Source: Bdellovibrio sp. SKB1291214
GTDB lineage: Bacteria > Bdellovibrionota > Bdellovibrionia > Bdellovibrionales > Bdellovibrionaceae
Direction of reading: 5' to 3'
NCBI RefSeq assembly: GCF_002209355.2
Contig: NZ_CP106855.1
Span: 3,348,001 to 3,412,000 of the forward strand
DNA: 64,000 nt
This document shows positions 54,827 through 60,098 of the stretch, piece after piece. A model generated the notes under the pieces. That model had not been told where the DNA came from and searched no databases. It saw only the letters and a program-made list of their open reading frames with translations. The first letter of the stretch is position 1, and each line of letters opens with the position of its first letter. The translations under genes were made by a program, and so were the position numbers.

Positions 54827-55189
54827 ATGATCTTAGCGTTGTTTATCCTGCTGTTTTTTCAATTTTTGGGTGAGGGTTTAGTTCGTTACTTCAACCTATT
54901 CATCCCAGGCCCGGTGATGGGCATGGTTTTTTTCTTTGGGGCGTTGGTGTTCTTTCCGGTTTTGAAAAGTCGTACGGAAAGCCTAGGCATTTTTATCAGT
55001 CAGCATCTTTCGCTATTTTTTATCCCGGCGGGCGTGGGAATGATTGAGTACTTTGATCTGTTTGGACAGCATGGGGCGGCGATTGTTATCACCATTATCA
55101 TCAGCACAACAATCACAATCGTGGCGACGGCTTTGATCTTTAATACGCTGTTGAAAGTGAAAGGTCACAAGGGGGAAGCTCATGATTGA
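54827..55189 (+). CDS. lrgA: LrgA/CidA family holin-like membrane protein
   Basis: 120 residues with four predicted membrane helices. FLGEGLVRYFNLFIPGPVMGMVFFF and LSLFFIPAGVGMIEYF are the family hallmarks. In other bacteria CidA/LrgA with LrgB modulate murein hydrolase release, autolysis or small-molecule (pyruvate, glycolate) transport. Translationally coupled to lrgB by an overlap of eight bases. Confidence 0.85.
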   Translation: MILALFILLFFQFLGEGLVRYFNLFIPGPVMGMVFFFGALVFFPVLKSRTESLGIFISQHLSLFFIPAGVGMIEYFDLFGQHGAAIVITIIISTTITIVATALIFNTLLKVKGHKGEAHD

Positions 55190-55862
55190 GTTGTTCTCGT
55201 TGATCCTGACATTTGGGATGTATCTATTTGCCTTAAGAATCAGTGATAAGGGGAATAAGCATCCTTTGCTCAGTCCCGCATTGATTGGGATTCTGGGCGT
55301 GATGGTTGTGATCCTATTTATGGGCATTCCTTATCAGGAATACTTCCAAGGCGCGCGACCGATTCACTTTATGTTGGGTCCTGCAACTGTGTCATTTGCA
55401 TTACCTCTGTATGCTCAGCTGGATCGTCTTAAAAAACTAATGGTTCCGCTAGTGATAGCTCTGGTGATTGGCTCATTGATCGGGATTTTAAGTGCCGTGA
55501 TGATCGGAAAGGTCTTTGATCTTCCGCAGGAAGTTTTGATTTCCTTGTCACCGAAATCAGTGACGACACCCATTGCAATGGGCATTGCTGAAAAAATCGG
55601 CGGGACGGCATCGCTTGCGACAGTGTTTGTGATGATTACCGGATTATTCGGGGCGGCTGTTGCAACTGTCGTTTTGAATATGGTGAAAGTGCATGATCCC
55701 GCAGTTCGTGGATTTGCCTTAGGCTTGTCAGCGCACGGGCTGGGAACAGCCAGAGCATTTCAGGTAAATCAAGTTGCAGGAGCTTTTGCGGGACTTGCGA
55801 TGGCGTTAAATGGTCTTATGACTGCCATCTTAATCCCACTGCTGATGGCACTTTTTAGTTAG
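55182..55862 (+). CDS. lrgB: LrgB family membrane protein
   Basis: 226 residues with several membrane helices: LSPALIGILGVMVVILFMGIPYQEYF, FMLGPATVSFALPLYAQ, LSPKSVTTPIAMGIAEKIGG and ALGLSAHGLGTARAFQ, the most conserved LrgB signatures. Works with LrgA. Its end overlaps the convergent ankyrin-protein gene by eight bases, so this transporter pair ends directly against the predation pair. Confidence 0.9.
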   Translation: MIELFSLILTFGMYLFALRISDKGNKHPLLSPALIGILGVMVVILFMGIPYQEYFQGARPIHFMLGPATVSFALPLYAQLDRLKKLMVPLVIALVIGSLIGILSAVMIGKVFDLPQEVLISLSPKSVTTPIAMGIAEKIGGTASLATVFVMITGLFGAAVATVVLNMVKVHDPAVRGFALGLSAHGLGTARAFQVNQVAGAFAGLAMALNGLMTAILIPLLMALFS

Positions 55863-56538
55863 TTGATGTTTCTGTCGTTTTTATTTTTTTAGACAGAAGA
55901 GAAACCAAAGACTTGTTATTCATTTCTTTGGAAAGATCTAGGGCAGTTTTGCCCTCTTTGTTTTTAATAGCGACGTCAGCGCCATTTTGTACAAGTAGTT
56001 TTGCAATATTCGTATAACCAGCACGAACGGATTCAATCAAAGCCGTGTTACCCAAAGCGTTTGTTTGGTTGATCACTTTTTTGTTCTTTTGAAGAATCAT
56101 GCGCGTGGTTTTTTCGCTGCTTTTGGCAGCTGTGATTAACAACGTGTCTTTGTTGTCAGAAAGAACTGCGACGTCAACCTGAGCCCCAGCTGCAATTAGC
56201 ATTTTAGCGGTGGCTTCTTGGTCATTTGAAACTGCCAAAGCCAACGCTGTATCACCGAACTTATTTCTTTGCTCTAAGTTCGCTTTTTTATCCAACAGTA
56301 GTTTTACGGCAGTGGTGTTCCCGTGCATCGCCGCTGTCATTAGCGGCGTCATGCTTTCATCGTCTCTCATGCCAGGGTCAAAGCTTGGTGTTTGGATGAC
56401 ATTCTTAACTTCGACGTTTTTTTGTAGCTCGATGGATTTGTTCAAATCGTCAATAGTGCTGCCTTTAGCGCGTACTGGGCCAAATACAGTGAAGATTGCA
56501 ACCAAAACATAGAAAATCCAAATAGCTACATTAATCAT
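55855..56538 (-). CDS. Secreted ankyrin-repeat protein, probable DacB self-protection factor (Bd3460-like)
   Basis: 227 residues. N-terminal signal (VAIWIFYVLVAIFTVFGPVRAKG) exports it to the periplasm. At least four ankyrin repeats run from about residue 60 to 220: MTPLMTAAMHGNTTAVKLLL, DTALALAVSNDQEATAKML, TLLITAAKSS, NTALIESVRAGYTNIAKLL, KTALDLSKEMNN. Its start overlaps the stop of the DacB-like gene by one base, so the two are co-translated. In B. bacteriovorus the ankyrin protein Bd3460 binds the exported DacB enzymes Bd0816 and Bd3459 and shields the predator's own wall. Gene order, export and fold all match, but binding is inferred. Confidence 0.85.
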   Translation of the reverse strand: MINVAIWIFYVLVAIFTVFGPVRAKGSTIDDLNKSIELQKNVEVKNVIQTPSFDPGMRDDESMTPLMTAAMHGNTTAVKLLLDKKANLEQRNKFGDTALALAVSNDQEATAKMLIAAGAQVDVAVLSDNKDTLLITAAKSSEKTTRMILQKNKKVINQTNALGNTALIESVRAGYTNIAKLLVQNGADVAIKNKEGKTALDLSKEMNNKSLVSLLSKKIKTTETSTN

Positions 56539-57836
56539 TAAAAGCTCTCCAAGGTAAGCCCGTATTCCAAGACCAGAGCGGATTCTTTATCAAAGGGGAG
56601 GGCCGTGATTTCATTATAATCAAACTTTTTAGCGCCATTGTTGATGCCGAAAAGATTGCGGATTCGTTCTTTGATGGAGTTTGCAGCGGAGCCGTTTTCT
56701 CCGGAAGAATCTTTGTGCATCAAGATCACGAAATAAATTGTGCCGTTACCAGTTGAAACGGTTCCCGCTAGCGTTTTAGCTTTGTCAACGGTGCCGGTTT
56801 TACCGACCATGGCACTGTCCATCACTCCGCCGAATCTTCCCACTGTCGATTCAGAGTCTTTACCCGCCACGGCCATAACATCAGTTAATGACAAACCTTG
56901 ATTTGCCAAGACTTCATTCAAGCGCACCAACACTTTGATCATGGCAGTGCAAGTGCCTTCGTTATAATCGTATTTCTTTTTAGAGATATAGTCAGCGTTG
57001 TTGCCTGAGCCCAAATTGAACTCAAGGTCGCGGTTATCCATCTTTAAGGCATTTTGCAGATATTGATTAAATGCCGGCGTATCACCTAAATTCCAATACA
57101 AGTGGTCTGCCACATAGTTATTGGATTTGTTGTTCATGCTTTTAAGAATTTTGTAAAGAGGAGCTGACTTATAAATGAAAGTTGCTGTGTTTGCAGTTTT
57201 CTTGAATTCTTCTTTAGGCAAATATCCCACTGTACCGAATTTGATGTTGGGCTTTGTTTCAGGAAGTTTGATCCCGATATCTTTAGAGATTTTACGTAAG
57301 TATCTGTAAGAGTTGTCCGCGATCGGAGTCATGAAACCGTTTTGCAGTTCATGCTGTACGTGCGCGACTTGTGAAGGAAGATCTGGATAGTATTTGGTGT
57401 CGCCCGCGATTGAAGAAGGCTCTTCCACGTTCCATTCCATTAAAACATTTTGGTCAAAGGAAAGTGTGTCGACCTGTTTGATGCCCATTTCTCTCATCGC
57501 AAGCTGTGCCAGAATAAAATATCCCACACTGCGACCGAACATAGGATCTTGACCACCTTCGAAATGGATATCGTAAGTGCCAACGGATTTCTTGGTAACG
57601 TGAATGCGAGTTGTGAACCGGTAGTTGGCACCTAGTGTTTCGATGGCCCACAAAGATGTGACGATTTTGGAAATGGAAGCTAATGGGAATTTGTCGTTTT
57701 TAGCGTCGTTGCCTTCGATCTTGCCGGAGTTAGCCTTCATTGTGCACGACGAGTTCAGATAGACTTTCGCGTAAGCAGACGTCGTGAAGGTCACGATCAA
57801 CGCCATTAATGCCAGTTGTAATCTCAAGAATGACAC
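56538..57836 (-). CDS. DacB-type D,D-carboxypeptidase/endopeptidase (Bd3459-like prey-rounding enzyme)
   Basis: Peptidase family S13 (PBP4/DacB) that cuts 4-3 cross-links of peptidoglycan. 432 residues from GTG 57836 with AAGGGGAATAGG ahead; the frame is open to 57884. Signal peptide LALMALIVTFTTSAYA. Active-site motifs: SISK (SxxK, near the mature N-terminus), SNN in MNNKSNNYVADHL and KTG in VGKTGTVDK. Compared with E. coli PBP4 it is slightly shorter. The two Bdellovibrio DacBs are known to be sent into prey and to round its wall during entry. Context with the ankyrin gene makes this role likely here. Confidence 0.88.
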   Translation of the reverse strand: MSFLRLQLALMALIVTFTTSAYAKVYLNSSCTMKANSGKIEGNDAKNDKFPLASISKIVTSLWAIETLGANYRFTTRIHVTKKSVGTYDIHFEGGQDPMFGRSVGYFILAQLAMREMGIKQVDTLSFDQNVLMEWNVEEPSSIAGDTKYYPDLPSQVAHVQHELQNGFMTPIADNSYRYLRKISKDIGIKLPETKPNIKFGTVGYLPKEEFKKTANTATFIYKSAPLYKILKSMNNKSNNYVADHLYWNLGDTPAFNQYLQNALKMDNRDLEFNLGSGNNADYISKKKYDYNEGTCTAMIKVLVRLNEVLANQGLSLTDVMAVAGKDSESTVGRFGGVMDSAMVGKTGTVDKAKTLAGTVSTGNGTIYFVILMHKDSSGENGSAANSIKERIRNLFGINNGAKKFDYNEITALPFDKESALVLEYGLTLESF

Positions 57837-58154
57837 CCTATTCCCCTTATCCCCTAGATGTAATTGAGCTGGTCTACTTAGCAATTCGGGTTCGGTTAAT
57901 ATACTTAAAATCCCTTAATCTAAAGCTCTAAATGGAGTCGCCGGAAACTTTTCGTGATCGCACGCAGGCGGCAGGAGTGTATTATTTTCCAAAGCTGCCA
58001 GGAAGGCCACTTTCAGAGGGAAAACGCGTGAAATTTAGGGGAGTTACCGAGGCAAGCTTTTTCGCGCGCAAAGGGCGGATTTGGTTTGAAGGAAGCTTAA
58101 TGTCGCGCTGACTCAAATTACGCAATTAAAATTCAGTTTGGACAGAAGTGGGGA
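57837..58154. other. Non-coding stretch upstream of the DacB-like gene
   Basis: About 320 bases without a convincing gene. It should hold the minus-strand promoter of the DacB-ankyrin operon. A short plus frame from GTG 58028 (27 codons) follows GAGGG but I do not trust it. No clear repeats. Confidence 0.4.
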
Positions 58155-58185
58155 ATAAAAAAGGGCTTCTTAATGAAGCCCTTCG
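58155..58185 (-). terminator. Terminator of the exported protein gene 58194-60098
   Basis: On the minus strand AAGGGCTTC-ATTAA-GAAGCCCTT runs into TTTTTTATT. Confidence 0.92.
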
Positions 58186-58193
58186 GGTTGAGA

Positions 58194-60098
58194 TTAAGGT
58201 TTTTTATTTCCGCCCGTCGAGTCCGTTACCAAGCGCAGATCGAATGAGCGATCATTGATCAAGTTTTGGATGTACAGCAATGATTGATACAGCTGTTGTT
58301 TTTCGAAGTTACCAAAGCGGAAGTTGATCGAATCAGATTTACGACCCGAGAATGTCATTTCGTACGTCACCAAATGTTCGAACTGAGAATCTGGAAGCAA
58401 CGTCAGGATGAAATAAGCACCGTGATCACGCCACATCGCAATTTTCTGCAAATTTCTGAAAGCCTCATAACGGGCTTTATCCGTCATGGCATTCTGCAAA
58501 AGGTATGAGAAGTTCATAGCGATTTTTTCGATCTTGCCACGTTTCAATTGATCCAAAGTTTCGCCTTTAGAATCCAAATAATCTGTGAACATTCTTTGAA
58601 CTTGCGACGTCGTATAGTTCGGCAGGGCCGCGTAAGCTTCAGGCATGATGCAAACCTGATGACGGAAGTAACCATTCACAATGTCGCCATCAGAGAAATC
58701 CCAGTGCTTCCAATCGATTTGACGATAAATCCACTCGGGCAAAACTTCCGCAGCGCGATTTTGCATTTTTCCGAAATCTTTTTTGGAAACGTTTCTCATA
58801 CGTGCTTCGTAAAAGTGCGATGCCGTTACCAAAGTTCCGGGAGTCCAAGCTGGATTTGAATTAAAGATGATGTGATCACCTTCTGTGATTTTATTACCCC
58901 AGATGCCATAGAAGATTTTAGATTGAGCCGTCTTTTGGTATGTATCCAAGATGTATTGCTTTTCAACGTTGTTTGAATCGTAGTTTTGCAATTTATTTTG
59001 AGAATACAAAGTGTTCGCTTCCAGGCGTAACAAGCTCATAGAAAGCTTATAGCGAGACATAATGTCGATGGAAGTATTGGAGCCCTTGAACACGCGATCG
59101 ATACGACGTTGTTCCGGTGGCAAGTTGTGATCTGCCATGTACATGTCTTCGATCTCTGACATATCCGTCAAAAGTTCGTTTTGTAATTCAGGGCGAGAAG
59201 CCGTCGGATCAATCACTTTCAAGTTTTTGAATTTCAATTTTTTAGACATGAAGTTGTTATAAGCTAACGCCGCATCTGGATTCTTCAAGTCGAATACGTA
59301 ATCCAGCATGAAGACGTCATTTAACGACTTACCAAAGTTCAAAGACGCCGGTTTCAAGTCAACCCAACGCTCGAGCTTTCTGTCGATCACACGAAGACCA
59401 ATAACTTTAAGTTTTCCAAGGTAATCAATAGAAGCACCGGCACCTGTTCCGCGGCTTCTCATGGTGATCAGCTTCACACGGATTTTATCGTTTTCCATAC
59501 GGTACAAGTGAATCATGAAATCACCCGACATATAGATGTGAGTAGATCCACCCAACTCGATTGTTGGATTCAAATCTGTCGCTCCGCCAATTGAGAAAAC
59601 GATATTTAATTTCCCTTGAAGAGCAACGAAGTCACCAATCTTCAACTTTTCCACAGCTTTTTGAGCTGTGAATGGAATGCGATTCAATGTGTAAGGCATC
59701 GCTTTGATAGAATCGCTTTGAGATTTGAACTGACGAGCAAAGTAAACTTCCGTGCCTTGTTCAACTTTGAATCCGAATGGCGTGATATCACCACTCATCA
59801 AATCGCCCACATCCACATTCGTCGTAAGGATATACTTGTCCAGGCGAGTGTAGTAACCATCCAGATAGGACGGTTCTGATTTCGCTTTGTATTTCAACGA
59901 AACGTTGAGTCCATCGATAAGATCACCGCTCAAACCAATTGTCGCGCCGATATCTTGTTTTGCGATTTGTTTGCGGATTTTTTCTAGAACTTTTGATGGT
60001 TCAAAAATGTCTAAGCCTGCGTGAGATTGAACGGGTACAGAAACAGAAAGAGTCAGTGCCAATACGGACAGAACTGACTTCCATGATGTCGTTTTCAA
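58194..60098 (-). CDS. Large exported protein of unknown function
   Basis: 634 residues with a signal peptide (VLALTLSVSVPVQSHAG, cleavage near 27). The mature part is a mixture of beta-rich segments (GATIGLSGDLIDGLNVSLKYKA, VYFARQFK, VKLITMRSRGTGAG) and helical charged segments. Cysteines are rare. No catalytic motif or known domain recognised. It stands alone with its own terminator. Periplasmic or cell-surface location is likely, and a role in predation is possible but unsupported. Confidence 0.65.
   Translation of the reverse strand: MKTTSWKSVLSVLALTLSVSVPVQSHAGLDIFEPSKVLEKIRKQIAKQDIGATIGLSGDLIDGLNVSLKYKAKSEPSYLDGYYTRLDKYILTTNVDVGDLMSGDITPFGFKVEQGTEVYFARQFKSQSDSIKAMPYTLNRIPFTAQKAVEKLKIGDFVALQGKLNIVFSIGGATDLNPTIELGGSTHIYMSGDFMIHLYRMENDKIRVKLITMRSRGTGAGASIDYLGKLKVIGLRVIDRKLERWVDLKPASLNFGKSLNDVFMLDYVFDLKNPDAALAYNNFMSKKLKFKNLKVIDPTASRPELQNELLTDMSEIEDMYMADHNLPPEQRRIDRVFKGSNTSIDIMSRYKLSMSLLRLEANTLYSQNKLQNYDSNNVEKQYILDTYQKTAQSKIFYGIWGNKITEGDHIIFNSNPAWTPGTLVTASHFYEARMRNVSKKDFGKMQNRAAEVLPEWIYRQIDWKHWDFSDGDIVNGYFRHQVCIMPEAYAALPNYTTSQVQRMFTDYLDSKGETLDQLKRGKIEKIAMNFSYLLQNAMTDKARYEAFRNLQKIAMWRDHGAYFILTLLPDSQFEHLVTYEMTFSGRKSDSINFRFGNFEKQQLYQSLLYIQNLINDRSFDLRLVTDSTGGNKKP

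Follow-up and report, generated by a model that had tools for sequence, protein, structure and literature searches.

The window analysed here, a stretch of 64,000 nucleotides, comes from Bdellovibrio sp. SKB1291214, a predator that forms plaques on Gram-negative prey (PMC5941755) and whose genome is a single contig of 3,681,188 bases. On its minus strand lie dacB (56538–57836; 432 amino acids, GTG start), which encodes an S13-family (PBP4-like) DD-endopeptidase/carboxypeptidase orthologous to Bd3459, and ank (55855–56538; 227 amino acids), which encodes a probably exported ankyrin protein of six repeats orthologous to Bd3460. The two genes have one base, 56538, in common: the junction reads TAATG, with the TAA of dacB ending at 56538 and the ATG of ank beginning at the same base. 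An S13 DacB gene followed with a one-base overlap by an ankyrin gene was what the initial annotation had described, and the coordinates proved exact to the base. The same −1 overlap was found in the three closest relatives, ZAP7 (G012), KM01 (G022) and G011, and dacB and ank are likely to be translationally coupled through TAATG. The GTG start of dacB at 57836 is preceded by AAGGGG six bases 5′ of it; an alternative, longer reading would begin at a TTG at 57884. The D-Ala-D-Ala carboxypeptidase and the ankyrin gene of SKB1291214, together with the lack of an ankyrin gene in P. exovorus, have been reported before (PMC5941755), so the pair itself was already known.

The surroundings of the pair were also annotated. 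A terminator-like hairpin 3′ of the gene upstream of dacB (58160–58184, minus strand) would set dacB–ank apart as a two-gene unit of its own, the hairpin count not exceeding that of shuffled sequences. Farther upstream, positions 58194–60098 encode a 634-amino-acid exported protein that matched no Pfam or NCBIfam family and that occurs at the dacB–ank address only in the clade of the window and in its sister G010. On the ankyrin side, lrgA and lrgB occupy 54827–55862, with lrgB convergent to ank and ending 8 bases inside it. HD100, like many others, has lrgBA on the opposite side, between hemH and dacB; in ZAP7, KM01 and G011 these genes are absent from the dacB–ank address. For reference, the genomes named in this work carry the labels G000 (SKB1291214), G002 (Tiberius), G005 (NC01), G006 (HD100), G012 (ZAP7), G013 (W), G016 (kdesi), G018 (B. 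reynosensis LBG001), G022 (KM01), G023 (SSB218315), G058 (P. exovorus JSS), G059 (Ca. B. qaytius) and G087 (H. marinus SJ); a strain list for these predators is available in Table 1 of PMC11656739.

The wall enzyme and its ankyrin partner

DacB matched the Pfam family Peptidase_S13 (E 1.5e-20). Its SxxK (S54-I-S-K57; 57666–57677), SxN (S238-N-N240; 57117–57125) and KTG (K346-T-G348; 56793–56801) motifs, all read on the minus strand, are invariant in 16 aligned DacBs. Compared with PDB sequences, the enzyme matched Bd3459 (E 1.5e-115) and Bd0816 (E 3.2e-105) strongly, whereas E. coli PBP4 (DacB), which has the same S13 family and catalytic motifs, was a weak match (E 1.2e-05). In structure, the AlphaFold model (pLDDT 89.8) came closest to Bd3459 as solved in its complex with Bd3460 (TMq 0.89, rmsd 1.7); similarity to PBP4 was far lower, with TMq around 0.55 (0.54–0.56). 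The modelled fold is that of the predatory class, distinct from PBP4/Bd3244, and the enzyme clusters apart from the other S13 gene of the genome. A Sec signal peptide was predicted by eye at residues 1–23 (...TTSAYA/K; 57768–57836, minus strand), and the K of this putative cut site aligns with K38, the first residue of mature Bd3459 (PMC4686830). The last helix of DacB (residues 378–398; 56643–56705, minus strand) probably corresponds to alpha-9, the docking helix of Bd3459.

The ankyrin protein matched Pfam Ank_2 (E 1.8e-26), and its most specific PDB match was Bd3460 (E 1.3e-44); slightly higher scores went to two eukaryotic ankyrins of great length, in which many repeats add up. All six top structural matches to its AlphaFold model (pLDDT 90.7) were Bd3460. 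Alignment and model together revealed six repeats, a long loop between repeats 3 and 4 and a crossover helix after repeat 4; this extra helix, between repeats 4 and 5, covers residues 153–157 (56068–56082, minus strand). Bd3460 is described as departing from the ankyrin consensus in three ways, one of them a short crossover helix after repeat 4 (PMC4686830). The Sec signal peptide predicted by eye for this protein (residues 1–24, ...FGPVRA/K; 56467–56538, minus strand) has an n-region without positive charge. By the same inspection, the N-termini of both DacB and the ankyrin protein are hydrophobic and end in an A-x-A-like site; the first 20–30 residues are modelled with low confidence in both cases.

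The pair therefore resembles Bd3459/Bd3460 of HD100 (PDB 5CEC, 5CEA; PMC4686830) in gene order, chromosomal address and both folds, and in combining an S13 enzyme with a Sec signal (here putative, judged by eye) with an ankyrin protein of six repeats that has the repeat 3–4 loop and the crossover helix. Identity is 48% for the enzyme and about 45% for the ankyrin protein. The spacing of the genes differs, with a one-base overlap in the window and a 7-base gap in HD100. The proposal that the two genes are the Bd3459/Bd3460 counterpart in order and architecture was thus upheld, as they are orthologous by sequence, fold and address. The strength of the PDB matches and the conservation of the pair at one address throughout the genus show that the arrangement is no accident.

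Address, distribution and number of enzyme targets

All 23 Bdellovibrio loci that are assembled, that of the window and those of 22 relatives, show one order wherever the flanking contig was present for comparison: hemN-hemG-hemH, then lrgBA or another gene, then dacB-ank-DEAD box-hydrolase-pcnB, with ank directly 3′ of the predatory dacB. Given this common address, dacB–ank is orthologous by position to bd3459/bd3460. One genome that appeared to have no pair (G009) was set aside as uninformative, because the draft is also without the neighbouring DEAD-box orthologue, the stretch being missing.

Several further genera within the family also have dacB and an ankyrin gene directly adjacent. Among 291 sampled genomes of the phylum, predatory-class DacB is restricted to this family, family f18 (which includes H. 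marinus) and one draft genome elsewhere. An ankyrin gene lies directly after DacB in 23 of about 57 cases in f18, usually with an N-terminal hydrophobic segment. At locus L162 and other f18 loci the ankyrin partner is often longer and its N-terminus resembles an uncleaved membrane anchor; such sequences suggest a tethered inhibitor. Among epibiotic predators, P. exovorus has neither gene of the pair, and Ca. B. qaytius has three predatory-class DacBs (L126, L127 and L128) with no adjacent ankyrin gene. Three further genomes (G065, G069 and G079) have DacB next to the DEAD-box gene at the common address, with no ankyrin gene between the two. No conserved alternative small partner was seen beside the ankyrin-less DacBs, whose neighbours vary by genus. 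In genome G050, a Bd3460-like ankyrin gene (L113:5213-5860; E 6.8e-62) is located ~150 kb from DacB (L112:4966-6249) on the same contig, and the two are a separated pair.

DacB–ankyrin synteny has been described as going with periplasmic predation (PMC4686830). The distribution determined here agrees with that statement and widens it, lifestyle being known for few of these genomes. The pair had also been taken as a sign of a predatory lifestyle, which is reasonable within Bdellovibrio, but pairs are also present in uncultured genera of unestablished lifestyle.

The initial annotation further cited published work in which Bd3460 binds two enzymes, Bd0816 and Bd3459. The Bd3459-type enzyme is present, but a search of the SKB1291214 genome for S13 genes did not find Bd0816. 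The one other S13 gene (G000:C1:1069480-1070727) is of the canonical housekeeping type, with 276.8 bits compared to 41.4 and 33.0. The window ankyrin thus has one predatory target instead of two. Bd0816 of B. bacteriovorus (PDB 5CER) is of the same enzyme class as the window DacB and differs in being a second, unlinked enzyme. Among the genomes compared, it is present only in Tiberius, HD100, kdesi and SSB218315, and it branches with the Bd3459 clade, which identifies it as a late duplicate that only the B. bacteriovorus clade has. The double-target role published for Bd3460 is a trait of that clade and does not define the family.

Two matched types and the docking surface

The DacB and ankyrin trees each separate a type A (Bd3459/Bd3460-like, including the window) from a type B, and in the family-wide DacB tree each type forms one clade with a support of 100. 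Type-B pairs (NC01, uncultured Bdellovibrio and the second pair of B. reynosensis) parallel type A in address, order, motifs and the exported ankyrin protein, but have only ~30% enzyme identity to it, a longer enzyme N-terminus, an altered enzyme mid-region and a shorter ankyrin repeat 3–4 loop. On trees of six flanking proteins and rpoB the types are intermixed, at least 4–5 changes being needed, and a single type-A clade was rejected (AU p 4e-82, 1e-95 and 1e-69). G010, the nearest relative beyond the clade of the window, is of type B. Enzyme and ankyrin types match in every one of the 23 assembled Bdellovibrio loci, a pattern that by itself is no proof of incompatibility since dacB and ank are adjacent. 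Both types are in use among invasive predators, since NC01, a known invader, carries type B. We found no report of these DacB/ankyrin types in the small set of papers mentioning Bd3460 that was searched.

B. reynosensis contains both pairs in tandem, with B upstream of A. This arrangement, together with within-type gene trees that roughly follow the species, favors descent from an ancient tandem in which one or the other pair was lost repeatedly; pairs may also have been replaced through transfer. A search of the flanks of single-type genomes for remnants of the lost type gave none that was convincing (best E 0.005), and the best trace falls inside a low-complexity proline-rich gene. Two further features of the type-B and tandem loci were recorded. 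The type-A enzyme of B. reynosensis (L055:7411-8757) has a lipoprotein-like N-terminus (LLTSCTSNG) and may therefore be membrane-anchored. In G018 and G021, the type-B pair has immediately upstream of it (L055:11040-13474 and L057:4189-6650) the genes of two neighbouring lipoprotein-like exported proteins that may contain degenerate ankyrin-like repeats.

In the crystal complex, the outer helix-turn-helix face of the ankyrin protein contacts the last helix of the enzyme transpeptidase domain (PMC4686830). Conservation of the Bd3460/Bd3459 interface residues, which the initial annotation had made a test of the pair, was not borne out by alignment. At the outer-face ankyrin positions (helix-2, a crude proxy for the interface), 7 of 25 residues are identical between the window protein and Bd3460, and by this proxy conservation is no higher on the exposed outer face than on the opposite one (0.38 versus 0.43). 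In the docking helix, 5 of 17 residues are identical between the window DacB and Bd3459 (29%, versus 48% for the whole protein), and the exact contacts of Bd3459 consequently cannot be carried over. Bd0816 and Bd3459, which share one ankyrin protein, are 76–82% identical in this helix and 62–66% identical overall. Of 383 sliding windows, that of the docking helix, a region picked beforehand from PMC4686830, has the largest excess of Bd0816–Bd3459 identity over between-species identity; as the windows overlap, its rank (0.3%) serves only as an indication.

Pairwise distances of DacB and the ankyrin protein are correlated when controlled for three flanking genes, with a partial r of 0.86 in type A (Mantel p 0.001, n = 14) and 0.71 in type B (p 0.001, n = 7). 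Corresponding type-A controls with hemG, hemH and hemN gave −0.28 to 0.15, and the type-B controls, with five genomes, were uninformative. On these sequence comparisons, the docking surfaces of DacB and the ankyrin protein have changed together. Because both partners co-diverged, low interface similarity does not refute the identity of the pair, and conserved Bd3460/Bd3459 contact residues are not a family-defining feature.

Proposed function and alternative readings

Taken by homology, the locus is very probably the Bd3459/Bd3460 module of SKB1291214, consisting of a wall enzyme and a self-protection inhibitor. Expression of Bd3459 peaks at 15–30 min of prey entry and the enzyme cuts 3-4 crosslinks, both being known for Bd3459 only (PMC3276566). 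By analogy with the HD100 proteins (PMC3276566 and PMC4686830), the window DacB would be exported during prey entry, crossing the predator's periplasm to reach the prey, and there would cut 3-4 peptide crosslinks and so cause the prey to round. The ankyrin protein would remain in the predator periplasm and dock onto DacB across its transpeptidase lobe and last helix, thereby keeping the predator's own wall out of the active site. In SKB1291214 this inhibitor would have a single predatory target. The pair is inherited as a matched unit, and the genus has two types of it, A (in the window) and B, which share one address. Orthology, intact motifs, fold, coupling and co-divergence argue for this assignment, while inhibition, timing and export are projected from the HD100 pair.

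Three other readings of the locus were weighed against the inhibitor assignment. The ankyrin protein could mainly be a chaperone or export partner of DacB, acting in folding or in hand-over to secretion with inhibition secondary, and coupling through TAATG as well as co-divergence would be expected of any obligate partner. However, purified Bd3460 inhibits Bd3459 completely and its co-expression protects E. coli, and a Bd3460 deletion strain still rounds prey, so that export works without the ankyrin protein (PMC4686830); we regard a primarily chaperoning role as improbable. Still less probable is that DacB is a housekeeping PBP4 for the predator's own wall that is tuned by the ankyrin protein. 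Although the enzyme belongs to the S13 family and matches the NCBIfam PBP4 model below the cut-off, the genome encodes a separate, much more canonical S13 gene, and the window enzyme groups with Bd3459/Bd0816 in trees and has a fold far closer to Bd3459 than to PBP4. Equally remote is the reading in which the genes are conserved neighbours without functional interaction at an address that is simply stable, as might be argued from the synteny of the whole neighbourhood across the genus. Among the tested neighbours, however, co-divergence is specific to DacB and the ankyrin protein, the pair recurs in different gene surroundings both in other genera and in f18, a distant family, and the orthologues Bd3459 and Bd3460 form a crystal complex.

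With the inhibitor assignment retained, the identification of the pair is correct and largely known; the parts that merit further attention are the two-type switching and the docking-helix pattern. Tentatively, and with slightly less than an even chance of being right, we propose that this is a switching enzyme–immunity locus, in which ancient and mutually incompatible A and B pairs once stood side by side, an arrangement that persists in B. reynosensis, and lineages repeatedly kept one matched unit, giving species-specific partners in the manner of toxin–immunity systems. If so, an A ankyrin protein would give no protection against a B enzyme. Two matched types, one species with both pairs, one clade in which a single inhibitor serves two enzymes and, in an epibiotic predator, enzymes with no adjacent ankyrin gene together constitute a natural experiment in the safe handling of a dangerous wall enzyme by a predator, through which specificity, cross-protection and the sequence of gains and losses can be tested.
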